Below, in pieces: positions 6,985 through 39,823 of a DNA stretch of 64,000 nt (positions are counted from its first letter, which is position 1; each line of letters opens with the position of its first letter). Below the pieces are notes generated by a model. That model did no database searches. It was given only the letters and a program-made list of their open reading frames with translations, and was not told where the DNA came from. Source of the DNA: Veillonella criceti (GTDB lineage Bacteria > Bacillota > Negativicutes > Veillonellales > Veillonellaceae); the NCBI RefSeq assembly GCF_900460315.1, contig NZ_UHIO01000001.1, positions 706,001-770,000 of the forward strand. The letters run 5' to 3'. The translations under genes were made by a program, and so were the position numbers.

Positions 6985-8613
6985 TTATTTCACCAACAAT
7001 TGTATCATCATACCATTTTCTTCATGTTCTAAAATATGACAATGCACCATAAATACACCCGGTTGTGTGAAATGTACTTTGATGCGCACCGTTTCACCAG
7101 GCTCTACTTGAATGGTATCTTTGAAACCTTGTTCATTAGGTGCTACTGGCTTCCCATTTCGTGATACAACTTCAAATTGCACACCGTGAATATGGAACGG
7201 ATGCATCATACCCATCATGGCCGAATCAGCATTGATAATATCCCATATTTCAGTACTACCTAATTTACTAGTTAAGTCAATGCGATCCATGGAAAATTTT
7301 TGCCCATTAATGGTAACAGCTTCAGCCATGCCCGCCATAACTACCGTTTTATCCGCCTTGGCCATCATAGACTCTTGCAAAGTATTCGGATTAACAGTTA
7401 AATTTTTATGACGTTGCCACTGTGGTATATTAGTGCCGCGATCACTCATAGTACCTCGCTCAAAAGCTAATACAACCGTGCCATCGGCTGTCACTAAAGC
7501 AGGCAATTGACCTTCATATTTTGAAAAATCCATGACTACTTCAGCTCGCTCACCAGGTGCTAAGGTAAGCGTTGACATCGTAACAGGCGTTTCTAATAAA
7601 CCACCATCACTCGCTATTTGTCTAAAACTAGCGCCATCACTTAACTGCAATGTATAATTACGTGCATTCGACCCATTTAAAAGACGTAAGCGCATAATTT
7701 TCGCATTAACTTTAAAATATGGATTGATAGTGCCATTAACTAATAACGTATCACCATATACCCCATCAGCCTCATACGAGGTTTTATAATCCCATTGATT
7801 ATTGACTGTAAAGTTGCGATCTTGTAAAATTACTGGAATATCATCAACGCCATAGGTATTTGGCAAACCTAATTTAGTTTGCTCCTCATCTTCAATCCGA
7901 ATAAGCCCTGCTAAGCCCTTATATACTTGACTGGCTGTTGTCCCCATAGCATGAGGATGAAACCAAGCTGTACTCGCTTCTTGGTTAACTGTAAAATCAA
8001 TCTGCCCAGTTCCTCCATTAGCCGCAATTGGATGATGAGGGCCGCCATCTACATCCGAAGGCACTACTAAGCCATGCCAATGAAACGTAGTCTCTTCTGG
8101 CAATGTATTTTTTAAATGAATTGATACCTTATCGCCTTGTTTCATCGATAATACAGGGCCTAATACATTACCATTATAACCATATGTCTTTGTTGCATCC
8201 CCATCTTTCAATTGGTTCTCACCTGCTTGAGCCACAATATTGAACACTGTACGCCCTTGCTCATTCAAAGTGCCTTCTAAAAGCGGTGGAATTGCGAGTG
8301 GCCTTGCTGCTTGTTGTATAGTCTGAAATTTCACAACATCATCAACGCCGTGACGCATGCCATGATGAGGCATTCCCGGTTGCATTATTTCATGCATAAT
8401 TGGCATCATGCCTTGATGCATATTCTGCTGACTGTGAGGCATCCCCTTATGGTGCATAGACCCTGCCATCATCATTTGAGAGCCGTCTTCCTGACTTTCA
8501 CAACAATAGCTAGTGGCCTCATGATTAGTATGTGCATATGCCGTAAATACACTACCTGTTACTAGTGAAGCTACCAGCATGGACTTTAATAACTGTTTAT
8601 ATGAACGTTTCAT
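6985..8613 (-). CDS. Exported multicopper oxidase with a His/Met-rich N-terminus
   Basis: 542 residues, beginning with a Sec signal peptide (MKRSYKQLLKSMLVASLVTG, cleavage probably after TAYA near 27). Residues about 28-90 are rich in His and Met, a likely copper-binding tail. All four copper motifs are visible: HWHG about 178-181, WFHPHA about 214, HPFHIHG about 475 and HCHILEHEENGMM near the C-terminus, including the type 1 Met ligand. Family members oxidise Cu(I), other metals or phenolics outside the cytoplasm. ATG 8613 was chosen because the signal peptide starts there; the frame extends to GTG 8643. Copper tolerance is the simplest role but is inferred. Confidence 0.88.
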   Translation of the reverse strand: MKRSYKQLLKSMLVASLVTGSVFTAYAHTNHEATSYCCESQEDGSQMMMAGSMHHKGMPHSQQNMHQGMMPIMHEIMQPGMPHHGMRHGVDDVVKFQTIQQAARPLAIPPLLEGTLNEQGRTVFNIVAQAGENQLKDGDATKTYGYNGNVLGPVLSMKQGDKVSIHLKNTLPEETTFHWHGLVVPSDVDGGPHHPIAANGGTGQIDFTVNQEASTAWFHPHAMGTTASQVYKGLAGLIRIEDEEQTKLGLPNTYGVDDIPVILQDRNFTVNNQWDYKTSYEADGVYGDTLLVNGTINPYFKVNAKIMRLRLLNGSNARNYTLQLSDGASFRQIASDGGLLETPVTMSTLTLAPGERAEVVMDFSKYEGQLPALVTADGTVVLAFERGTMSDRGTNIPQWQRHKNLTVNPNTLQESMMAKADKTVVMAGMAEAVTINGQKFSMDRIDLTSKLGSTEIWDIINADSAMMGMMHPFHIHGVQFEVVSRNGKPVAPNEQGFKDTIQVEPGETVRIKVHFTQPGVFMVHCHILEHEENGMMIQLLVK

Positions 8614-8709
8614 ACGAATATACCCTGTCCTTTCATTAACCACAATATACGACTAATTGTACTTTTATGGTAACATAGGACATTACCAGATACTAGAGGG
8701 GGGTATATG

Positions 8710-9474
8710 TTATTTGTTTACTTCGTAATTGATAGCGCCCTTATGCATCAATAACTTAGCTTCCATAGAGGTAATCGATTTATCGGTTAGCATATCCTTA
8801 GTTTCAGAAATATACCATTTAAATGCCCACGTATTTCTATGTTTTTCATACGCTTCCTTATTCGCATAAATTTCATAAAAATACCAAGTATTTTTATCAC
8901 CTTTCACCTGACCAGCATACATAGCCAATACCCCTGGTTCATCTGCAATGGATTGCTTCATCTCATCGACAACCACCCGTGAAAAGTCTTCGTTATAGCC
9001 TGGCTTTACTTTTACCATAGCCAAGTTAACTAGTACCTGAGTATCATTTACTAATGCCAACGAGTCTTCTTTAGTTAACAAAGCTACCGGCTCTAAAGCG
9101 TAAAAGGTACGACTATTCAAATGTCGACCAACTGCATCAATAAACGCGTTATACTGTGGTGATTTTTTGTGAATTTCATACGCTTTATTATTTTCATAAA
9201 TTTCAGCTACATACACTAGATTACTATTTGTCTTATCAGTACTCGCATTCATCGCCCAGGTTCCTGATTCATTAGCCAGTGACTTTGTGAAATTTTGATA
9301 ACCATTGTCATAAAATGCAGGTTGTACAGCCTGATCAACTTCAAAAGTAAATAAGTTATATACTGGTATATTATCAGGCACTTCTGGTTCCACTGTAGTA
9401 GATTTAGCACTTCCAGTAGCCATCATTAAACATAGCAAAGATGTAGTAGCTAACATTTTCCAATATTTTTTCAT
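8710..9474 (-). CDS. Exported protein with two ABM (quinol-monooxygenase-like) domains
   Basis: 254 residues starting at ATG 9474. An N-terminal signal peptide (KKYWKMLATTSLLCLMM) is followed by two similar halves of about 95 residues, each ending in a 'Y..E.Y.n..AYE.H' element (VAEIYENNKAYEIH and FYEIYANKEAYEKH). This is the ferredoxin-like dimeric fold of antibiotic biosynthesis monooxygenases, here in tandem. Small members act on quinols or phenolics without cofactors; activity here is inferred. Its start lies 14 nt after the stop of the quinone reductase gene, so they share an operon. It also lies next to the multicopper oxidase. Confidence 0.75.
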   Translation of the reverse strand: MKKYWKMLATTSLLCLMMATGSAKSTTVEPEVPDNIPVYNLFTFEVDQAVQPAFYDNGYQNFTKSLANESGTWAMNASTDKTNSNLVYVAEIYENNKAYEIHKKSPQYNAFIDAVGRHLNSRTFYALEPVALLTKEDSLALVNDTQVLVNLAMVKVKPGYNEDFSRVVVDEMKQSIADEPGVLAMYAGQVKGDKNTWYFYEIYANKEAYEKHRNTWAFKWYISETKDMLTDKSITSMEAKLLMHKGAINYEVNK

Positions 9475-9488
9475 ACAATACCCCCTAC

Positions 9489-10001
9489 TTATTTTAAAGT
9501 AGCCATATACGCTTTCGTTTGCGCTTCTAATGTAGCGGTTTCCATACCTAACGTACCATAAGTCACAAATGGTTTCAACCAAGTAGTACCAATTAGTTGA
9601 CTAGTAGCTTTAAATGGCAATACTAATTCATCAATAGTTACATCAAAACGACTTCCTTTTGTATAGTCCTCTGCTTTTGCCCCTGTAGAAAGTGCTAACA
9701 TCAATTCTTTACCATGTAAAGCTGTGCCTGTTGAACCATAAGCCCAGCCATGTTCAAATACTTCATCTTCCCACTGTTTCAATAAAGGTGGGCAAGAATA
9801 CCAATAGAATGGAAATTGCAGTACAATTCTATCCGTTGCTTCTAATATTTTTTGTTCTGCTTTTACGTCAATTTTACCATCTGGGTATATTTCATACATA
9901 TAACGAACATCAACTTGTGCGCCTTCAGCGGCTTTTGCTAAGGCCTTATTTACTACAGAATCACTCATATGTGGATGGAATACAAATACTGTTGTTTTCA
10001 T
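9489..10001 (-). CDS. Flavodoxin-fold NAD(P)H:quinone oxidoreductase (MdaB/KefF-like)
   Basis: 170 residues from ATG 10001, with AAGGAG upstream; the frame extends further to 10070 without support. Seen: the N-terminal flavodoxin strand TTVFVFHPH, LQFPFYWYSCPPLLKQWEDEV at about residues 65-85 (typical of FMN-dependent quinone reductases and modulators of drug activity), and ALSTGA. These enzymes reduce quinones by two electrons and avoid radical formation. It is first in an operon with the ABM-domain protein and is preceded by three direct repeats that may control it. Confidence 0.8.
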   Translation of the reverse strand: MKTTVFVFHPHMSDSVVNKALAKAAEGAQVDVRYMYEIYPDGKIDVKAEQKILEATDRIVLQFPFYWYSCPPLLKQWEDEVFEHGWAYGSTGTALHGKELMLALSTGAKAEDYTKGSRFDVTIDELVLPFKATSQLIGTTWLKPFVTYGTLGMETATLEAQTKAYMATLK

Positions 10002-10040
10002 AATAATCTCCTTTATTGTATCTCTACTTCTAACGTATCT

Positions 10041-10100
10041 AAAATTTACTACATTATTTTTATATTTCACTATATCATTTTTAATATTTTACTAGATTAT
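10041..10100. promoter_or_regulatory. Three direct repeats upstream of the quinone reductase gene
   Basis: ACTA cores at 10048, 10069 and 10091, each in a 'TTT(t/c)ACTAnATnAT' context, are spaced 21 and 22 nt, about two turns of the helix. They lie 40-100 nt before ATG 10001. The arrangement suggests operator sites on one face of the DNA, or UP-like A/T tracts. The regulator is unknown; the TetR protein at 10415 is a neighbour but its own palindrome differs. Confidence 0.35.
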
Positions 10101-10112
10101 GTTCTTAAATTA

Positions 10113-10367
10113 TTATTTACCTCGAAACGAGGTTACATTATCAGCTATCAAATTAGCCTGAAACTCACGAATTGTATAAACCGCCTTATCTGGATAATAG
10201 CTATCTTTAGCAATCAGTGCCTCTATAGCCTCTCGAGATTCCGCTTGCGCCATAACAATACCAGCTGCTTCTTGATCTCTATATGGCCCTACCACTAAAA
10301 AATGTCCAGACTCAAACTGCTCTTTAAACCAAGCACGATGTCCTTCCAGTAGCTTTTCAGCCTGTTC
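10113..10367 (-). pseudogene. YciI-like protein lacking its N-terminus
   Basis: The frame EQAEKLLEGHRAWFKEQFES.. continues through GHFLVVGPYRD to ..NVTSFRGK and matches the YCII-domain layout, but the first 12-15 residues, including the usual start, are missing: a TAA at 10368-10370 sits directly before the conserved frame and no ATG precedes VGPYRD. A GTG at 10295 could only start a 60-residue fragment. This is best read as a decayed gene. YciI-like proteins are small ferredoxin-fold proteins near redox enzymes, so it fits this quinone cluster. Confidence 0.6.
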
Positions 10368-10414
10368 TTAATTTGCTATTAACAATGCAATAGTTATAAA
10401 AATATTAACTTAAC

Positions 10415-11047
10415 CTACGTTTTAAGAAGTCCTACTAGTAACGGATATATACTAGCATAAATAATTTGCTCTACTGAAATTGTCCTATAATGAATGTTAG
10501 CCGTGTCCATAGCTAGTTTTTGTTTAGTTGATGGATTTACATAGGGGTATACTCCATATATAAAAGGGAAAAATGCATATCCAAAATCAGCACGCTTTTC
10601 ATCTGTTAGTTCCGGAAAAAATTTTGCTAACCCAGCATCGATGCAAATCATTGCTTCTTTAAACACGTCTTTAAATGCCACTAAAAACTCTAATCGACTA
10701 TGTTCTTCTATTTCATACAAATTAGTACATTGAATCCGTAATAATAACTCATGATTAGATAACGATTTAGCTAATTTTTTTACATATGTATCGGCTAATA
10801 ATGACGGTTGCTCATTAATTTCTCGCAATTCTACTACCCATACTTTATATTCCCGCGTAAGTAAACTTAAAAATATTTCTTCCTTGGTTTTAAAATAATT
10901 ATAGATAGAAGACCGTGAAATACTTGTTATTTCACCTATGTCTTTTAAATTAACTTCATTAAAACTCTTAGTTCTATACAATATTTCACAAGCATCCATA
11001 ATTTCCTCAGGACGCTGCGATACTATTTTATTAGATGATCGCGCCAT
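10415..11047 (-). CDS. TetR-family transcriptional regulator
   Basis: 210 residues from ATG 11047, with GAGGTGATGAT before it. The N-terminal helix-turn-helix is clear: EIMDACEILYRTKSFNEVNLKDIG..ISRSSIYNYFKTKEEIF at about residues 10-55. The rest is a helical ligand-binding domain with no family I can name. It is preceded by a near-consensus promoter and a 35-bp palindrome at its -35 region, so autorepression is likely. Nearby candidates for control are the acetyltransferase upstream and the quinone-reductase operon downstream. Confidence 0.85.
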   Translation of the reverse strand: MARSSNKIVSQRPEEIMDACEILYRTKSFNEVNLKDIGEITSISRSSIYNYFKTKEEIFLSLLTREYKVWVVELREINEQPSLLADTYVKKLAKSLSNHELLLRIQCTNLYEIEEHSRLEFLVAFKDVFKEAMICIDAGLAKFFPELTDEKRADFGYAFFPFIYGVYPYVNPSTKQKLAMDTANIHYRTISVEQIIYASIYPLLVGLLKT

Positions 11048-11148
11048 ATCATCACCTCTTTTTATGCACACTTAGGAATAAACATTGTTTTAATTAGGGT
11101 AAAATTATCCTTTAATGTATTCCTTCATTTATATCAGCTGATGATTAT

Positions 11149-11177
11149 ATTATATCTTTTTACTGACACATCGTCAA
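11149..11177 (-). promoter_or_regulatory. Promoter of the tetR-like gene
   Basis: TTGACG (11177-11172) and TATAAT (11154-11149) are separated by 17 nt on the minus strand, about 100 nt before ATG 11047. The -35 overlaps the edge of the palindrome at 11175-11209, and the spacer holds a further TGTCAG. Confidence 0.75.
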
Positions 11178-11209
11178 TATAATTCTGACATAATGTCAGA
11201 ATTATATTG
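11175..11209. promoter_or_regulatory. 35-bp perfect palindrome, probable operator of the TetR-like regulator
   Basis: Two 17-nt arms (11175-11191 and 11193-11209) are exactly complementary around one central base, with the core TCTGACATAATGTCAGA. No T-run follows, so it is not a usual terminator. Its position against the -35 of tetR suggests a repressor site. Binding by this TetR is inference. Confidence 0.6.
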
Positions 11210-11261
11210 AATCAATAACAATCGTACCTTCTAACTGGTTAATTTCGTCCACAACTATATT

Positions 11262-11843
11262 TTATTTTGTTAAAGACCGAATAATTCTCGCTGGATTACC
11301 AGCAACAATTACATTAGCAGGCACATTCTGAATAACAACAGAGCCAGCACCCACGATAGAATTATCACCAATCGTAATGCCTGGCAACACTGTTACATTA
11401 CCACCAAGCCATACCCTTTTCCCTATATGAATAGGTCTAGACTGAGTGCTTTCTCTACTAAAGGGATTTTCAATATGATTTGTTGTTAATAAATGGACTC
11501 CTGGACCAATTAATGCATAATCGTCTAAAAAAATGCCACCACGATCCATAAATACACAATTAAAATTTATAAATACAGACTTACCGATGTGTATATTGTG
11601 ACCATAGTCTGTATAAAATGGTGGATTCATTCTAAAGGATTCATCAATCTCACTATTAGTTATTTCAGAGAATATATGACGTATCTCATCCATCTCATGA
11701 TACCCTGTATTCAATTTAGCCGTTAATGTCTGTGCCTTTCTAATAATCTTATGAATCGCTAAATATTCTTCATCCTTTGTAGAAATAACCTGACCCGCTA
11801 ATTCCCGTTCAAAAATAGACTGTCTTAATGGTTCTTCAGACAT
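11262..11843 (-). CDS. Sugar O-acetyltransferase, left-handed beta-helix (Maa/LacA/NodL type)
   Basis: 193 residues from ATG 11843, with AAGGAG upstream. An N-terminal helical 'maltose acetyltransferase' segment (about 1-60) precedes hexapeptide repeats, with FYTDYGHNIHIG, the catalytic His in LLTTNHIENP at about 117, and GGNVTVLPGITIGDNSIVGAGSVV. The enzyme would acetylate a sugar or related acceptor from acetyl-CoA; the acceptor is unknown. It lies upstream of tetR on the same strand with the palindrome in between. Confidence 0.85.
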   Translation of the reverse strand: MSEEPLRQSIFERELAGQVISTKDEEYLAIHKIIRKAQTLTAKLNTGYHEMDEIRHIFSEITNSEIDESFRMNPPFYTDYGHNIHIGKSVFINFNCVFMDRGGIFLDDYALIGPGVHLLTTNHIENPFSRESTQSRPIHIGKRVWLGGNVTVLPGITIGDNSIVGAGSVVIQNVPANVIVAGNPARIIRSLTK

Positions 11844-11912
11844 CTGACTCCTTCTTTCCGCATACTCCCACAACACTGATAAAATTATCTTTATAGATTC
11901 TACTAAAAAAAT

Positions 11913-11946
11913 AAGACCGATTACACTTTCTACTGTAATCGGTCTT
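11913..11946 (-). terminator. Strong terminator hairpin upstream of the acetyltransferase gene
   Basis: AAGACCGATTACA (11913-11925) pairs perfectly with TGTAATCGGTCTT (11934-11946); the minus strand continues with ATTTTTTT. No intact minus-strand gene lies just upstream, so it probably served the gene whose 3' remnant is at 12016-12063. Confidence 0.7.
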
Positions 11947-12015
11947 TAACTACTCGTCTAATACTTATTCTTTTTAAACAAAAATGCCTTTTAAGCATTT
12001 TTATTGTAAATCTTC

Positions 12016-12063
12016 TTATTTTAATCCTTTAGATACTAACCATTGTTCAGCTAACGCACCAAC
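12016..12063 (-). pseudogene. 3' remnant of a lost gene
   Basis: On the minus strand the 15 codons VGALAEQWLVSKGLK run into TAA and look like the end of a protein, followed by a small hairpin (11989-12003 region) and the terminator at 11913. An in-frame stop lies just upstream, so nothing more of the gene remains. The family cannot be named. Confidence 0.3.
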
Positions 12064-12083
12064 TTATCAAGATTAATCCAGCA

Positions 12084-12161
12084 AAAAACTTCTATATAGA
12101 TGTTATTGACAGTGTCATCTCCTTATGATAAGCTTTATATAGATTCTATATAGAAGTTTTT
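12084..12161. promoter_or_regulatory. Paired inverted operators upstream of the marR-like gene
   Basis: The 17-nt arms 12084-12100 and 12145-12161 are exactly complementary. Each contains the palindrome TCTATATAGA, so this is both a long inverted repeat and two copies of one palindrome. Between them lie TTGACA (12106-12111) and the smaller palindrome TGACAGTGTCA (12107-12117). This is typical of MarR autoregulation; the binding protein is inferred to be the next gene product. Confidence 0.6.
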
Positions 12162-12189
12162 ATTCATGTGATTAATATGGAGGTGGCTT

Positions 12190-12612
12190 TTGGATCGGGA
12201 AATAGGTTATTTAATAGGTCGGATCCATTTGTTGAGTAACCGATTACTAAACCGTTTATTGCAAGAACATAATATTACCAGCTTTAACTCTGAGCAAGGC
12301 AAAATTTTATATCAACTTTGGAAAAACGACGGCATTACTATGTCTGAATTAGCCACTAATACAGGGCTTGCTTTAAATACGCTATCTAAAATGCTACAAA
12401 CTATGGAACAACAGCATTTAGTTGAACGTCGAGTCAAAGATGGCGATAAACGTAGTAAACGCATATTTTTAACACCTTTAAGTAAACAAGCTAAGGCAGA
12501 TTCAGCTATCATCAGCCAAATGATGACAAGCAAAGCATATAATGGTTTTTCAGAATCTGAAATTTTACATTTTGAGGCACAATTAAGAAAAATATTAAGT
12601 AATTTAGAATGA
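12190..12612 (+). CDS. MarR-family transcriptional regulator
   Basis: 140 residues starting at TTG 12190, placed by the GGAGGTGG site just upstream; the ATG at 12177 is out of frame. The winged helix is clear: GITMSELATNTGLALNTLSKMLQTMEQQHLVERR at about residues 52-85, with the wing DGDKRSKRIFLTPLS. MarR proteins are dimeric repressors often released by phenolics or oxidants. No reactive Cys is visible, which argues against an OhrR-type thiol switch. It is followed after 90 nt by the small Cys-rich protein gene. Confidence 0.85.
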   Translation: MDREIGYLIGRIHLLSNRLLNRLLQEHNITSFNSEQGKILYQLWKNDGITMSELATNTGLALNTLSKMLQTMEQQHLVERRVKDGDKRSKRIFLTPLSKQAKADSAIISQMMTSKAYNGFSESEILHFEAQLRKILSNLE

Positions 12613-12702
12613 TATTTGTAAACCTACATTAATATTGGATAATTTATAAGAATATTAAGTATTTTATAGTAATATTTTAAAAAGCAAAAGGAGATATTTA
12701 TT

Positions 12703-13035
12703 ATGACCAGCAAAGAACTAAAACCTATCGTTACATCGATTATAGAAGCACCATCTTGTTGCCCAGAATTAAAAGAAGTAGCACAAGCGTGGTTAAACTC
12801 ACTTGGCACTGAACAAGAAGCTGCTGCAACTGAAAAATTAATGGCCGAAGCAAAAGCTGATATTACTACTGTTGATAATTTAATTGCTTTAACAGGTTCC
12901 GAATTAGGCGTTCAAATTTTTGGCGAAAAATTGGCTCAAGACTTACATGCTCATGGACTAGACATTAAAAGTAAAGGTGCTATGTATTGTGATTGTCCAG
13001 CTTGCGCCGGTTGCCTAGCTATTATAGAAGGATAA
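12703..13035 (+). CDS. Small conserved protein with CC and CxCxxCxxC motifs, function unknown
   Basis: 110 residues with a good AAAGGAG site. Seen: an N-terminal PSCCPEL (about 19-25), a helical middle segment (EAAATEKLMAEAKADITTVDN), and a C-terminal YCDCPACAGCLAI (about 94-106). The four clustered Cys plus the CC pair could bind a metal or Fe-S cluster or act in thiol chemistry. I recall similar short proteins in anaerobic Firmicutes carrying an unhelpful 'Hsp90-like' label; no Hsp90 feature is visible here. It probably forms an operon with the MarR regulator and is the likely target. Confidence 0.7.
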   Translation: MTSKELKPIVTSIIEAPSCCPELKEVAQAWLNSLGTEQEAAATEKLMAEAKADITTVDNLIALTGSELGVQIFGEKLAQDLHAHGLDIKSKGAMYCDCPACAGCLAIIEG

Positions 13036-13116
13036 ATTGTTTATATTCTTATTTTAATTAGCGTAAAATCTTAGAATGAATTATCATATATAATTATTAT
13101 ATAAAAAAGCTGTAAC

Positions 13117-13142
13117 CGAGGATTCATCCTTAGTTACAGCTT
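13117..13142. terminator. Bidirectional terminator between the Cys-rich protein and nitroreductase genes
   Basis: AAGCTGTAAC (13117-13126) pairs with GTTACAGCTT (13133-13142), with an A-rich left flank and a T-rich right flank. The stem is identical to the one at 6930-6971. The rest of 13036-13278 shows no gene. Confidence 0.7.
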
Positions 13143-13278
13143 CTTTAATTTAAAATGTAAAATGTTTTATATCTTTACATGGGTAAGTTTACCAATGTTT
13201 TTACTTACTCTCTATACATACATTTCGCTTATTTATATTCACGCAATTATATTCACTTAATTATATCTATCTAAGCAA

Positions 13279-13851
13279 TTATTTTTTAATCACTACACGT
13301 TGACTAATATCTTCTTTTTCTTTCGCATCTGGTTCTGCCACAATACCACCAAATGGCATTTGAGCATCTAACACCCAATTGCTAGGCAAATCAAATAATT
13401 TCTGTACCGCTTCATTAATCACTGGATTATAATGCTGTAAAGAAGCACCAACCCCTAATTCACGTAATCCTTCCCAAATGGTAATCTGAAGCATACCAGC
13501 TGACTGAGCCGCCCAATGAGGAAAACGTTCAGCATACATTGGGAACTGATCTTGCAAACTTTCTACAGTGGGTTGATCTACAAAATATAAAATAGTCCCA
13601 TAGCCAGCTTTAAAGCTATCAATTTTTTCACGAGCTACCTTGCCTTCAAATACATCATAAATAGTATCCCATAGGGCATCATGTTGCGCACCAAGTGCAA
13701 CCACTACGCGAGAACTTTTCATATTAAAAGAATCAGGTGTTAGTTCAGTGGCTTTTTCCACCAAATCCACAACTTCTTCTGCTTTCACCGGTAACTCTTT
13801 GTTAATATTGTAATAGGTACGACGTTTTTCTGCTACTTCTAATGTTTTCAT
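13279..13851 (-). CDS. Nitroreductase-family oxidoreductase
   Basis: 190 residues from ATG 13851 with a GAGGAGG site. It has the N-terminal RRTYYNINKELPV (FMN-binding arginines of the nitroreductase fold), 'MKSSRVVVALGAQHDALWDTI', WAAQSAGMLQITIWEGLRELG at about 112-132 and a C-terminal QMPFGG. The small NfsB/HBN1-like branch reduces nitro compounds or quinones with NAD(P)H. It stands alone on the minus strand. Confidence 0.85.
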   Translation of the reverse strand: MKTLEVAEKRRTYYNINKELPVKAEEVVDLVEKATELTPDSFNMKSSRVVVALGAQHDALWDTIYDVFEGKVAREKIDSFKAGYGTILYFVDQPTVESLQDQFPMYAERFPHWAAQSAGMLQITIWEGLRELGVGASLQHYNPVINEAVQKLFDLPSNWVLDAQMPFGGIVAEPDAKEKEDISQRVVIKK

Positions 13852-14022
13852 AATAAACCTCCTCAATTAAGACCTCTGTAATTTTCGTAATCCAATGCTG
13901 TATCAGTGTAATACTACATAAATTATACATAACTGATTTTTTAGTCCTAACTTGTCTTATTCATCTTTACAAGTTAATTATATACCTTATTTCGAAAAAT
14001 ATCAATATATAAATTTCAAAAA

Positions 14023-28998: not shown

Positions 28999-31377
28999 TT
29001 ACCACTCTAATTCATTGCCAAGAGTGCGACCGCGACCAGTCACAGCGTCAAGCATAATACGTTGTTCTAACTGAGCCACCATTTTCTTCGTAGCTTTTAC
29101 AGCATCTGGATTAACAGAGATAGAATCAATACCACTGCGTACTAAGAATTCACAGAAATCTGGATATACGCTCGGTGCTTGACCACAAATGGATACCGTT
29201 TTACCATCGCGATGTGCTACTTCAATTAAATGATGAATAGCACGACGAATAGCTAAATTACGTTCATCATAAATATGTTGTACCGTTTCATTATCACGGT
29301 CACAACCAAGAATTAACATCGTCAAGTCATTGGATCCGATGGAATAACCATCAACATATTGATTAAATTGATCTGCCAAAATAATATTAGCAGGAATTTC
29401 AGCCATAAGCCAAATCTTGAAGTCAGCACTACGAGCCAAGCCATTTTCAGCCATAATGCGCGTCACTTCTGCCGCTTCTTTTACTGTACGACAGAACGGA
29501 ATCATAACTTGTAAATTTTTGAAACCATATTCTTCACGCACTTTACGAATAGCTGCTAATTCTAATTGGAAAGCCGGTGCGTATTTAGGGTCATAGTAAC
29601 GAGATGCCCCACGCCAGCCAAGTAACGCACTAGATTCATGTGGTTCGTGTTTGTCACCACCATTTAAATCACGATATTCGCTAGATTTAAAATCACTTAA
29701 ACGAAGTACAACTTGACGAGGTGCCAACGCCTGACATACTTTACGCATGCCTTCTGCTAATGTATCAATAGCAAATTGGCTACGACCCGTTTCAATTAAA
29801 TGCAATGGATGTTCATGAATGAACGTGGTCCAAATAAATTCTTCACGCATTAAGCCAATACCATCACATGGTAATACACCATATTTTTCAGCCAAATCAG
29901 GATCGCCAAGGTTCATATACACTTTAGTGCCGGTAACTGGAATATATTCACTGACTACTTGACTAGTTGCTTCTTCTTTAGGTTTTACTGCATCTTCTAA
30001 AATGCCGTCATATACAATACCATTAGTCGCATCAACTGTAATCATCTGCCCATCAGCAATACGGTTTGTAGCTTCTTCACTACGACTCTTAGTCCCTACA
30101 ATACAAGGAATCCCTAATTCACGACTAACGATAGAAGCATGGCAAGTCATACCACCTGCATCAGTAACGATAGCTTTTGCTTTTTTCATAGCTGGCACCC
30201 AGTCTGGTGCAGTCATTGTCGTAACAAGAATTTCCCCTTCTTTGAAACTATCAATATCAGCTGGATCTAAAATGACATGTGCTTTGCCAGCTGCTTTACC
30301 AGGACTCGCTGGTAACCCTTTGACTACAATATCACGAGATGTAGTTGTCTGTACCGCTTCAGTAGCCGGTTTTTCTTCTTTATTTTTACGAGACCAAACC
30401 GTTTCAGGGCGTGCTTGAAGAATCCAAATCTTATTATCTCGTTCGTCAACGCCCCATTCCATATCCATATAGCAACCATAATGCTTTTCAATGGCTTTAG
30501 CATAAGTGGCTAATTCAAGGACTTGTTCATCCGTAATAACTTGTGTTTTGGCTTTTTCTTCTGGAATTACAATTTCTGCACAATCGCCATCAGGATTACG
30601 AACAAGGGCAATATTTTTATCGTTAATCATACGATTTTCGATTTTCATCTCTTTTTTATTAACGGTGAAGTTATCTGGTGTAACCGTCCCTTGTACTACA
30701 TATTCACCAAGACCCCAAGAGCCTTCAATTAAAATGCTTTCATCATTACCAGTCACAAGGTCAACCGTAAACATAACGCCAGCTGCTTTAGAGAATACCA
30801 TCATCTGAATAGCCGCACTCAAAGCTACAGTCATGTGATCAAAGCCTTGTTTTACACGATAATATGTGGCACGATCTGTAAAAGTAGAGGCATAACATTC
30901 TTTAACTTTTTGGATGATGACATCGGCTCCACGAACATTTAAATATGTATCTTGCTGACCGGCAAAACTTGCATCAGGTAAATCTTCAGCAGTAGCACTA
31001 GAACGAACAGCTACAAATGGATTTTCTTCTTTAACTTTTTCACCTAATTCAGCATACGCTTTTTCAATGGCTTCTGCTAATTCCTGTGGCATTTCTGCAT
31101 CGCAAATCAATTTACGAATATTAGCACAGATTTCACGAAGTAAGGCTGAATTTTCTACATCGTCCAATTTATCAAGTTCTGCTTTAATTTTGTCTTCTAA
31201 CCCAGTGCGTTCCATAAAGAACCGATAACCATGAGCAGTTGTAGCAAAACCGTATGGTACAGGTACATTTGTGGAGGAAGTCATTTCCCCTAACGAAGAA
31301 GATTTACCGCCTACTAAGGCTACATCTTCACGCTTTAATTCATCAAACCAAAGTACATATGCATTTTCACGATTCAT
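28999..31377 (-). CDS. ppsA: Phosphoenolpyruvate synthase
   Basis: 792 residues, the classic length. The N-terminal nucleotide domain carries ALVGGKSSSLGEM and RSSATAEDLPDASFAGQQDT; the phosphohistidine domain has GGMTCHASIVSRELGIPCIVG (catalytic His about 419 with the regulatory Thr two residues before); the C-terminal TIM barrel has SIGSNDLT and SICGQAPS. It converts pyruvate + ATP to PEP + AMP + Pi, the entry to gluconeogenesis from lactate. ATG 31377 has AGGAGG. Its regulator genes follow immediately downstream. Confidence 0.96.
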   Translation of the reverse strand: MNRENAYVLWFDELKREDVALVGGKSSSLGEMTSSTNVPVPYGFATTAHGYRFFMERTGLEDKIKAELDKLDDVENSALLREICANIRKLICDAEMPQELAEAIEKAYAELGEKVKEENPFVAVRSSATAEDLPDASFAGQQDTYLNVRGADVIIQKVKECYASTFTDRATYYRVKQGFDHMTVALSAAIQMMVFSKAAGVMFTVDLVTGNDESILIEGSWGLGEYVVQGTVTPDNFTVNKKEMKIENRMINDKNIALVRNPDGDCAEIVIPEEKAKTQVITDEQVLELATYAKAIEKHYGCYMDMEWGVDERDNKIWILQARPETVWSRKNKEEKPATEAVQTTTSRDIVVKGLPASPGKAAGKAHVILDPADIDSFKEGEILVTTMTAPDWVPAMKKAKAIVTDAGGMTCHASIVSRELGIPCIVGTKSRSEEATNRIADGQMITVDATNGIVYDGILEDAVKPKEEATSQVVSEYIPVTGTKVYMNLGDPDLAEKYGVLPCDGIGLMREEFIWTTFIHEHPLHLIETGRSQFAIDTLAEGMRKVCQALAPRQVVLRLSDFKSSEYRDLNGGDKHEPHESSALLGWRGASRYYDPKYAPAFQLELAAIRKVREEYGFKNLQVMIPFCRTVKEAAEVTRIMAENGLARSADFKIWLMAEIPANIILADQFNQYVDGYSIGSNDLTMLILGCDRDNETVQHIYDERNLAIRRAIHHLIEVAHRDGKTVSICGQAPSVYPDFCEFLVRSGIDSISVNPDAVKATKKMVAQLEQRIMLDAVTGRGRTLGNELEW

Positions 31378-31494: not shown

Positions 31495-31528
31495 AAAAGA
31501 AGAGTTGATAGCTATCAACTCTTCTTTT
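31495..31528 (-). terminator. Terminator of tyrS
   Basis: A 34-nt perfect palindrome (17-nt arms) with core GTTGATAGCTATCAAC, followed by T on the minus strand, about 95 nt after the tyrS stop. Confidence 0.75.
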
Positions 31529-31623: not shown

Positions 31624-32832
31624 TTAGTTAAACTTAATTTTAATAAATTTACGTTTACCAACTTGAAGTACCATATCTTCAGCGAGTTCAATATTTTCAT
31701 CACTACATTTTTCGCCATTAATCTTAAAGGCACCCGCTTTAATCGAACGGCGAGCTTCACTATTACTAGCTGTTAACCCTGCATCCGTTAATAATTGTGG
31801 TACATATACCGATTCTGCTGGCTTAGCAATAGCATATTCAGGAATATCAGAAGGCAAATCATGTTTCTGGAACACACGAATGAACTGTTCTTGTGCTTCA
31901 TCAGCTGCCGCTTCCCCATGGTACAAACGAACAATAGTATGAGCCAACTTCATCTTTGTATCTCGTGGATGAGCTGTGCCAGCTTCTAAGGCTTTCCCTA
32001 ATTCTTCTTGTTCTTCAATAGACATATCCGTAACAAGCATGAAATAACGCATCATAAGCTCATCAGGAATTGACATAGCCTTGCCATACATTTCAGTAGG
32101 GGCTTCACTAATCCCAATATAGTTCCCCAAAGATTTACTCATCTTCTGAACACCATCAAGACCTTCCAAAATTGGCATTGTAATAATCGTCTGTGGCGCT
32201 TGGCCATATTCTTCTTGCAAATGACGTCCCATTAATAAGTTAAAGGTCTGATCAGTACCACCAAATTCAATATCCGCTTCTAACGCTACAGAATCATAAC
32301 CTTGCATCAAAGGATACATAAATTCATGAACCCCAATCGGGCGCCCTTCTGTATAACGTTTCTGAAAATCATCACGTTCTAGCATACGAGCCACTGTATA
32401 TTTAGCCGATAGTTTCAACACATCTTCAAACGATAATTTACTAAGCCATTCGCTGTTATATACAACTTTTGTTTTTGACTCATCAAGCACTTTAAAAATC
32501 TGTTCTTTATACGTTTTAGCATTATGAGCTACTGCTGCTTCATCAAGAGGAGGACGCGTTACACTTTTACCAGTAGGATCGCCAATACGAGCTGTGAAAT
32601 CGCCAATCAAGATAATAATCTGATGTCCTAAATCCTGAAACGTTTTTAATTTACGCAACACCACCGTATGTCCTAAATGAATATCTGGTGCCGTTGGATC
32701 AAGGCCCAATTTAATCTTTAGCGGTTTATTTTCAGCAATTGATTTTGCCAACTTTTTCTTAAAATCTTCTTCTGGAAGTAAATTCTCCACGCCATGTTTA
32801 ATAAGACGTAATTGTTCTTCCAATGTTTTCAT
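31624..32832 (-). CDS. tyrS: Tyrosyl-tRNA synthetase
   Basis: 402 residues: class I signature [11 protein letters not shown] (HxGH) about 42-52, KMSKSLGN about 230, and a C-terminal S4 RNA-binding domain (about 340-402). The HLGH form and length fit the TyrZ-like branch. ATG 32832 has GAGGAGG upstream; the frame extends to 32874 without support. It lies 47 nt after the PBP gene, with no room for a T-box. Confidence 0.95.
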
Positions 32833-32879
32833 CAATCTTCCTCCTCTATAACTGCCAGGTTTAATTATAGCCAAAGTAG

Positions 32880-37549: not shown

Positions 37550-39823
37550 CTAAAAAATTCCTTTAAAGTAATGACCTCGTGTCACTGGTATATCTTCATT
37601 TTTTGGTGGAACTGGTGATGTCCCTTGTAAAATACCTACATAAGCCTGTATAGTTTCTTGTAGCCAAGTTTTTGACTGTTGACGACCATCAATACGCAAT
37701 ATAGCAATATTTCGTTTTACTAAATCAGGTATATAGGCACGCATATCAAGCATGCGACTATTCATAATGTGCATGCGACAATACGGATCTGTCCGCAATG
37801 GAAATTGTTCGCCTAAACGATCTTTTAACGCATATGAATCCTTTAAACAAGGTGCTGGACAGCCTTCTTTTTTACCAATTCCAGCAAAACTACTGATTAC
37901 ACAATATTCTGAAATCATTAATTCTGTCAAGCCATGGACTACACATTCAACAGGAACTGTTGTCTGTTTTATAATACGGCTAATCTGTTTCAGCGTCGCC
38001 TCTTGTGAAAGCACTACACTTCGCAAACCAAGCTGAGCCATTTGCTGGACTGCTTCTGTATTAAAAAGTTGTAAACTGCTATCCCCTTCAATAGGCCCCG
38101 TATAGCCCAACTCTTGTAACCATTCTAAAACGCCTAAGAAATGAATGCTAATCGCATCTGGCTTAGCCTCTATCATGGCCTGTAAAGTTGGCATATAACT
38201 AGCTACTTCACTATCACGCACAACACGTGGCGTTACTAATACACACGGTACCTGATGTGCCTTACAAAGAGCCACCACCCGTGCATATACGCCTAAATCA
38301 TACGGAGTCCGTTGTAATCGATCACCACCAAACACAATCTTCTGTGCGCCAGCCTGTAAGGCGGTTTCAATTTGCCATTCTTCATCAAGTTGCACTGCTA
38401 CTAGCGGCTTCACACTCTTAGTGCTCGGTAAATTAGTAGCTACCTCTGCTTGTGTCATAACAGTGTAACTTGGTCGATTGTGAAACTCTTGCTGAATAGC
38501 CGATTCTACACGCTGTAAAGTGGTAGTCATTTCTGTTTCATGCTGTGCTAACAACAATTCTTCTAATTGAGCAATCCCATCACGGCGCATCTGATTTAAC
38601 ACACTACTCGGCCACATAAAAGGTTCCTCTGGTATATACACAGAGGCCAAACTAAATACAGTTGTACCTAAACGCCCCAATTGTTCTGTTACTTTTTCAC
38701 GACTCGTTGGCACTTTTTTTGCTCGTTGCACTACATAATCAGCACTAACTGTTACTGTTTTACCATCCTCTAAGAGAAGTGTCAACTGTGGTGCCTCGCC
38801 TTCCACACCATCTAAGTAAGCATGAACTTCATATTTCCGTCCAAAATCTTGTAAATTTTGCCACACCGTCTTTTTAGGCCCTTCACCACTTGGACCAATG
38901 CGTTTACCACGATTACCTGGCGCTACAGCCGTAATCATCTCACGACTCGATCGATTTTCCAAATACGCTGTTGAAAAACCGCGATTAAAGCCTTCTTTTA
39001 AACGAGCTTGCTCTTTCTTCGTTGATTGCCCCGCTCGATCAATAATCGTTCGATAAGAGCCAATGACTTCTCGCACATAAGACGCCTTTTTCATACGCCC
39101 TTCTACTTTAAAAGAAGCCACACCTGCGGCCATGAGCTCACTCATGTGTTCACTATAATTCAAATCCTTAGGACTCATAATATACGCTTCATCAGCGCCA
39201 TTAACAGCTTGTCCCTTACCATCCAATAACTCGTAAGGCAAACGACATGGTTGAGCGCAAGCGCCCCGATTGCCACTACGCCCACCAATGAAACTACTCA
39301 TCAAACATTGACCAGAATAACACACACACAGCGCGCCATGAACAAAAACTTCTATTTCAGCCTTTGCTTCCTTACAAATATGCTCAATCTCCGCCAAACT
39401 CATTTCACGAGCCAATACAACACGAGTAAAACCCATGCGCTCTAAGAAACGGACTGTTCCCAAATTAGTAGCCGTCAATTGCGTACTAGCATGTAAATGA
39501 AGCTTAGGTGCTACTTTTTTAGCTAATTCAGCTACGGCTAAATCTTGCACAATAATCGCATCCACATGAATCCGTTCTAATTCTTGTAAATAGGTTTTTA
39601 AATCAGATAACTCTGTATCTCCAACTAAAATATTAACGGTTACAAATACAGACACATTTAACAAATGAGCTAATCGTACCGCCTCTTCTAATTCTTCTAT
39701 ATCAAAATTAGCTGCATTAGCTCTAGCATTAAATACTTTGCCACCTAAATAAATAGCATCCGCGCCAGCTTCTAAAGCAGCTAAAAAATTTTCCGACGTA
39801 CCTGCCGGTGCTAATAATTCCAT
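37550..39823 (-). CDS. U32-family peptidase/RlhA-like protein
   Basis: 757 residues. The U32 domain is clear: MELLAPAGTSENFLAALEAG, VHGALCVCYSGQCLMSS, NRGACAQPCRLPY. Cysteines in this block and in EGCPAPCLKD suggest an Fe-S cluster. A DUF3656-like middle and a second U32-like barrel half follow (about 470-750). E. coli relatives (RlhA) are needed for 23S rRNA C2501 hydroxylation; others are called collagenase-like. The RNA-modification role is more likely but unproven. It ends 55 nt before the mutS2 start. Confidence 0.85.
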   Translation of the reverse strand: MELLAPAGTSENFLAALEAGADAIYLGGKVFNARANAANFDIEELEEAVRLAHLLNVSVFVTVNILVGDTELSDLKTYLQELERIHVDAIIVQDLAVAELAKKVAPKLHLHASTQLTATNLGTVRFLERMGFTRVVLAREMSLAEIEHICKEAKAEIEVFVHGALCVCYSGQCLMSSFIGGRSGNRGACAQPCRLPYELLDGKGQAVNGADEAYIMSPKDLNYSEHMSELMAAGVASFKVEGRMKKASYVREVIGSYRTIIDRAGQSTKKEQARLKEGFNRGFSTAYLENRSSREMITAVAPGNRGKRIGPSGEGPKKTVWQNLQDFGRKYEVHAYLDGVEGEAPQLTLLLEDGKTVTVSADYVVQRAKKVPTSREKVTEQLGRLGTTVFSLASVYIPEEPFMWPSSVLNQMRRDGIAQLEELLLAQHETEMTTTLQRVESAIQQEFHNRPSYTVMTQAEVATNLPSTKSVKPLVAVQLDEEWQIETALQAGAQKIVFGGDRLQRTPYDLGVYARVVALCKAHQVPCVLVTPRVVRDSEVASYMPTLQAMIEAKPDAISIHFLGVLEWLQELGYTGPIEGDSSLQLFNTEAVQQMAQLGLRSVVLSQEATLKQISRIIKQTTVPVECVVHGLTELMISEYCVISSFAGIGKKEGCPAPCLKDSYALKDRLGEQFPLRTDPYCRMHIMNSRMLDMRAYIPDLVKRNIAILRIDGRQQSKTWLQETIQAYVGILQGTSPVPPKNEDIPVTRGHYFKGIF

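Follow-up and report, generated by a model that had tools for sequence, protein, structure and literature searches.

A predicted autorepressor with two putative operators, one at the centre of a 37-bp perfect palindrome, at a tetR promoter of Veillonella criceti

The tetR gene, its promoter and its neighbourhood

The window, the 64,000-nt stretch of Veillonella criceti DNA that was analysed, contains a tetR gene on the minus strand (10415..11047) that starts with an ATG at 11047 and is translated into a regulator of 210 amino acids. The protein features a TetR_N domain (PF00440, 30.6 bits against a cut-off of 24) and a TetR_C_34 domain (PF17929, 36.8 bits against a cut-off of 26.3), and its AlphaFold model (pLDDT 88.9, pTM 0.84) has the all-helical TetR fold. 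Homologs were collected by a scan of genome contigs, and the best 80 of 122 confirmed loci, which encode proteins with 39–48% identity, were used for comparison. The recognition helix residues R45, Y49, Y51, F52, and K55, numbered from MARSS, are conserved in 80 of the 81 aligned proteins and fall in a gap in the remaining one; the 81 rows of this alignment include L099, which is only 38 amino acids long. Cys20, located in helix 1 in the same numbering, is also present in 80 of the 81 proteins, and it is a lead for redox sensing and nothing more.

The promoter scan determined that tetR is preceded by a minus-strand promoter, TTGACG-17-TATAAT (11177-11149), that reads into the gene and matches the consensus at 11 of 12 positions. 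The -35 hexamer TTGACG is located at 11172..11177 and is separated by a 17-nt spacer from the -10 hexamer TATAAT at 11149..11154; the ATG of tetR lies 101 nt past the -10 hexamer.

Downstream of tetR, on the same strand, the window features an open stretch of 84 codons (10113..10367) that follows a stop codon and has no start. It resembles YCII proteins, a name that is our own reading of the sequence, and it is a probable gene remnant. An ABM-domain protein (antibiotic biosynthesis monooxygenase), which matches the domain in two stretches, is encoded further on at 8710..9582 (minus strand) and has weak relatives in the homologous loci L037 and L033. In the L037 locus both have counterparts downstream of tetR, as in the window: the YCII-like protein is 48% identical and the ABM protein, at 24%, only weakly similar. 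Relatives of the ABM protein were found in 2 and relatives of the YCII-like stretch in 1 of the 80 homologous loci, and none of these 80 loci has a relative of the KefF-like or CueO-like neighbours. The genes that surround the homologs include aldo-keto reductase, flavodoxin or flavin reductase, monooxygenase, and decarboxylase-like genes, all named by our own reading. Some of these neighbour clusters are antisense frames, and the cluster counts are lower bounds since 18 of the 80 loci were left out where the ORF caller missed the tetR start.

A search for the TetR protein in 6 congeners and 21 other members of the family found none, and 5 of the order's 33 other genomes have it; this distribution suggests that tetR may have been acquired by transfer. 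When the DNA upstream of tetR was compared with 60 relatives, the matches were short and scattered and came from just 3 other genomes.

The 37-bp palindrome

A perfect inverted repeat of 37 bp, TCAATATAATTCTGACATAATGTCAGAATTATATTGA, is located at 11174..11210 and consists of two 18-nt arms around a 1-nt centre with no mismatches. The original prediction described a 35-bp perfect palindrome at 11175-11209 that overlaps a near-consensus tetR promoter; this segment is real and forms the inner part of the 37-bp repeat, and the overlap is confirmed, as the outermost four bases of the palindrome are the TTGA of the -35 hexamer. Only these last four bases are common to both elements, and the bulk of the palindrome lies upstream of the -35 hexamer. 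Among 40 versions of the window generated with a second-order Markov model, perfect palindromes with a centre of 0–1 nt had arms of 7–10 nt at their longest, and the palindrome is therefore beyond chance.

The genome search for the palindrome arm that was proposed along with the prediction located an exact copy at the tetR locus only, the next best match having 3 mismatches. Long perfect palindromes can belong to mobile or repeated elements. Such an element, however, would be expected in several copies, and it was rejected here since the palindrome is present at one genomic locus and its arm has no copy with fewer than 3 mismatches elsewhere in the genome. The palindrome might also serve a different regulator as its operator, for example the MarR-family protein whose gene starts at 12190, about 1 kb away. 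The motif at the centre of the palindrome follows the TetR subfamily through many taxa, however, and only 1 of the 80 homologous loci carries a gene related to the MarR gene. A mobile element or a foreign operator is thus extremely improbable.

The arms of the palindrome could pair into a hairpin, whether in DNA or in RNA. A second alternative is that the palindrome is the terminator of the upstream acetyltransferase-like gene (11262-11876, minus strand). The palindrome is located between two genes of the same strand, its RNA fold of -29.6 kcal/mol (z -4.95) is far better than those of shuffled sequences, and other long perfect palindromes sampled in the genome look like terminators. However, the interval 10950-11350 contains no terminator-like site on either strand, neither arm is followed by a T-run, and the centre of the palindrome matches the putative TetR operator motif, which occurs exactly only twice in the genome. 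A terminator, which would feature a G+C-rich hairpin followed by a T-run, is very unlikely and was rejected.

In a 400-kb sample of the 2.245-Mb genome there are 6 perfect inverted repeats with arms of at least 15 nt and a spacer of at most 8 nt, one of which has a spacer of at most 1 nt. On visual inspection, each of the 6 is bordered by A/T tracts and resembles a terminator. The length of the palindrome alone is less special in the Veillonella criceti genome; what is unusual is that such a palindrome lies on a promoter and has no T-tract. The window contains a second perfect palindrome at 31495-31528, which has 17-nt arms and no spacer. It sits between the minus-strand frames 28999-31377 and 31624-32874, features A/T tracts at its ends, and looks like a bidirectional terminator.

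The conserved motif and the putative operators

The DNA upstream of homologous tetR genes features a motif, TGACA-N3-TGTCA, that is also found at the centre of the palindrome. Judging from their record titles, the homologous loci come from diverse Clostridia and Selenomonadales as well as from Synergistaceae, Spirochaetales, and Coriobacteriaceae, and many are from metagenome-assembled genomes. An exact motif is present within 250 bp upstream of tetR in 51 of the 80 loci, and allowing one mismatch raises the count to 74. The 20,758 upstream bases contain 90 exact sites, compared with 37 in the 582,234 bases that make up the rest of these loci, and shuffled upstream regions (200 mononucleotide shuffles) contain a mean of 0.01 exact sites. 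The same upstream DNA has no exact site for half-sites spaced by 1, 2, 4, or 5 nt or for three unrelated palindromes. When the proteins were collapsed at 70% identity, 18 of 21 representatives retained a site with at most one mismatch, including 14 with an exact one, and the site is located on the -35 in 16 of the 21.

The position of the motif is conserved as well. It overlaps the -35 hexamer in 72 of the 80 loci with a -10 hexamer (at most 2 mismatches) at 16–19 nt, and the -10 is exactly 17 nt on in 73 of the 76 homologous -35 sites, which is the same distance as in the window. The left half, TGACA, lies within the -35 hexamer TTGACA (one mismatch allowed), and a bound repressor would therefore cover the -35. 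The motif is not on a recognisable -35 in 8 of the 80 loci; in 6 it is missing, with up to one mismatch, from the 250 bp upstream of tetR, although 3 of these loci carry a pair farther upstream. Two or more sites are found in 48 loci, mostly spaced by 36–37 bp (34 of 51 successive spacings), and the second site is located downstream near the expected transcription start. The exact sites outside the upstream regions are also largely paired (32 of 37, 34–40 bp apart). In nine loci a pair of sites precedes a frame of the aldo-keto reductase-like cluster some 1.1 kb upstream of tetR; the name of this enzyme is our own reading of its sequence.

A separate search in the same order identified 5 relatives, of which 3 have an exact site on TTGACA within 250 bp; there are two such sites in L010 and one each in L011 and L013. 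In L013 the 13-mer on the -35 is identical to the one at the palindrome's centre. The remaining two relatives, L012 and L014, lack the motif even when 2 mismatches are allowed.

The motif places two putative operators at the tetR promoter of the window. O1 (11164..11176, minus strand), TGACGATGTGTCA, reads TGACG-ATG-TGTCA with one mismatch and is located inside TTGACG-17-TATAAT at the position that is conserved in the homologs, with its left half inside the -35 hexamer. O2 (11186..11198), TGACATAATGTCA, is an exact TGACA-TAA-TGTCA at the centre of the palindrome that matches the motif kept upstream of homologous tetR genes, and it lies 22 bp upstream of O1, start to start. The conserved promoter-blocking position is thus predicted to be held by the imperfect O1 and not by the palindrome. 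A TGTCAG in the promoter spacer had been proposed as a second half-site; it does belong to the repressor motif, but as the right half of the full site O1, and the comparison points to two full predicted operators rather than one plus a half-site. The geometry of the two sites in the window, 22 bp apart with the second site upstream of the -35, appears atypical in comparison with the homologs. Near the expected transcription start, where homologs with two sites mostly carry the second one, the window lacks any site, even with one mismatch allowed.

The motif occurs exactly twice in the genome, one occurrence being O2. Sites with at most one mismatch number 54 genome-wide versus 57 for a reversed control pattern, and a global regulon was rejected as the motif is no commoner than this control. 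The other two TetR_N genes of the genome have no site with up to one mismatch in their 3.1-kb loci. For these reasons the regulator looks local in scope. The second exact genomic site (1004114-1004126) falls, from its coordinates, within the 450-amino-acid frame of L115, and a copy of the O1 sequence (1750369-1750381) falls likewise within the 435-amino-acid frame of L116. A one-mismatch site at 126784 is covered by no frame of at least 60 amino acids. The window has three further one-mismatch sites, at 37572, 48767, and 60910, and those at 37572 and 60910 are inside long frames.

The outer arms of the palindrome differ from its centre. The original prediction stressed that 17-nt arms go well beyond typical TetR sites; the symmetry is real, however only the central 13 bp of the palindrome match the family motif, and the symmetry beyond them is peculiar to this locus among those compared. 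In 67 of the 90 exact homologous sites perfect symmetry stops at the core, and it runs 1, 2, 3, and 4 bases past the core in 17, 4, 1, and 1 sites, respectively. At 13–18 nt from the centre symmetry exceeds what base composition predicts by at most 0.02, or falls short of it. These counts weigh on a third alternative, in which the whole 37-bp palindrome is one extended operator, bound by two dimers or by a dimer with a longer reach along the arms, and its symmetry has been selected for tight repression. Perfect 18-nt arms do flank an exact core, and homologous sites away from the -35 show excess symmetry at 11–12 nt from the centre (0.55 and 0.43 versus 0.36 and 0.28 expected). The nearest parallel is a similarly extended site in L057, ATTCTGACATATTGTCAGAAT, with symmetry to 10 nt from the centre. 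Since symmetry in most homologous sites is lost at the core, with the longest reaching only 4 bases beyond it, an extended operator is unlikely. Long flanking symmetry does not appear to be a family trait among the loci compared, and because the symmetry of homologous sites ends at or near the core, the outer arms are read as lying outside the site of the protein and are probably incidental. L057 packs three exact copies of TGACA-N3-TGTCA into about 70 bp upstream of its match at 1408, and one of them shows extended symmetry like that in the window.

Proposed autorepression and comparison with known systems

An inverted-repeat motif is located on the regulator's own promoter and is conserved with the regulator, and autorepression of tetR through the two predicted operators is strongly supported by this comparison. 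The original prediction had argued for autorepression from the length of the symmetry and its position at the -35; the support now comes from the conservation of the motif and its placement on the -35 in homologs. It is highly probable that TetR represses its own gene through O1 and O2 and that the outer arms are incidental. A TetR dimer would bind the imperfect O1 (11164-11176), cover most of the -35 hexamer, and keep RNA polymerase off the tetR promoter. A second dimer would bind the exact O2 (11186-11198) at the centre of the palindrome; since the 22 bp that separate the two sites correspond to about two helical turns, this dimer would be on the same face of the DNA and would probably help hold the first one. 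An inducer, plausibly a redox-active or electrophilic small molecule because oxidoreductase-like genes surround the homologs, would release both dimers. The comparison of loci supports the motif, the 3-nt gap between its halves, and its location over the -35, while we infer the binding by TetR, the repression, the cooperativity, and the inducer.

On either side of O2 the mirror symmetry continues for a further 12 bp, and the simplest origin of this extension would be a template switch during replication that copied one flank onto the other. Template-switch events of this kind have been described in the literature, and the arms could plausibly stem from such a switch within the inverted repeat of the operator itself. 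A bolder proposal is that the subfamily reads TGACA-N3-TGTCA, controls a redox-detoxification regulon, senses through Cys20, and in the window uses the 37-bp palindrome either to tighten repression or to extrude a cruciform that competes with the repressor; taken as a whole this is distinctly unlikely.

Autorepression through O1 and O2 resembles the scheme of autoregulated TetR-family repressors, which share the TetR_N domain, the predicted TetR fold, and an inverted repeat over the -35 of the regulator's own promoter. Unlike these, the window features 37 bp of perfect symmetry at a second site, and the spacing of 22 bp is atypical even within its own TetR subfamily. The autoregulatory scheme is common and found in textbooks, whereas the palindrome is unusually long and perfect; the mechanism would be ordinary, the TetR subfamily is apparently uncharacterised, and the local variant is unusual.

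The best solved relative among the matches listed is SCO7815 (PDB 2zcx, from Streptomyces coelicolor by name). The TetR model aligns with it with a TM-score of 0.82/0.84 in Foldseek and with a Z of 20.4 and an rmsd of 2.6 over 202 residues in VIA-align, where the next match has a Z of 15.6, although the identity is only 20–22%. Another relative is PDB 3vok, which we take to be HrtR of Lactococcus lactis. Its similarity to the window TetR is confined to the DNA-binding end (E 0.0052 in phmmer, 6.4e-6 with a profile), and it is not among the best 50 matches listed in either fold comparison, which does not imply exclusion. The 15-bp operator of HrtR is presumably ATGACACAGTGTCAT, which would contain TGACA-N3-TGTCA. 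Of the 7 proteins scanned around tetR (6985-13866, tetR apart), none matches an ABC transporter family, in difference from HrtR-type heme-efflux neighbours.

HrtR of Lactococcus lactis is described as an autoregulated member of the TetR family (PMC7858072). FhtR of Enterococcus faecalis is a TetR-family repressor with two palindromic operators in the -10/-35 region, either of which alone is enough for repression without heme; the authors propose that both operators together tighten control (PMC7858072). FhtR is similar in combining the TetR family with two operators at a promoter, as is proposed for the window. However, its operators, TTATCAATCGATAA and TTATCGATTGATAA, are unrelated to TGACA-N3-TGTCA, and it differs from an autorepressor in that it is expressed constitutively and controls heme efflux (PMC7858072).

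Literature searches found TGACACAGTGTCA in none of the papers covered. The general motif, in four spellings of our own, was not found in them either, which says little on whether the operator has been published, and further searches gave no paper on the TetR_C_34 subfamily among the titles listed. The operator TGACA-N3-TGTCA on the -35 provides a concrete handle for a subfamily that is found, by the same record titles, mostly in gut and rumen anaerobes, and its regulons should be predictable from the motif. The locus also provides a small case in which the flanks of an operator may come to mirror each other while lying outside the binding site.

The MarR-family gene on the plus strand of the window (12190-12612) encodes a protein that is similar to NCBIfam TIGR04472, a radical SAM mobile pair system regulator, with an E-value of 3.9e-36, although the match is below the curated cut-off. 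Upstream of this gene, a possible -35 contains TGACA-G-TGTCA (12107-12117), with a spacer of 1 and not 3, which has a TTCTATATAGA-like palindrome copy on both sides.
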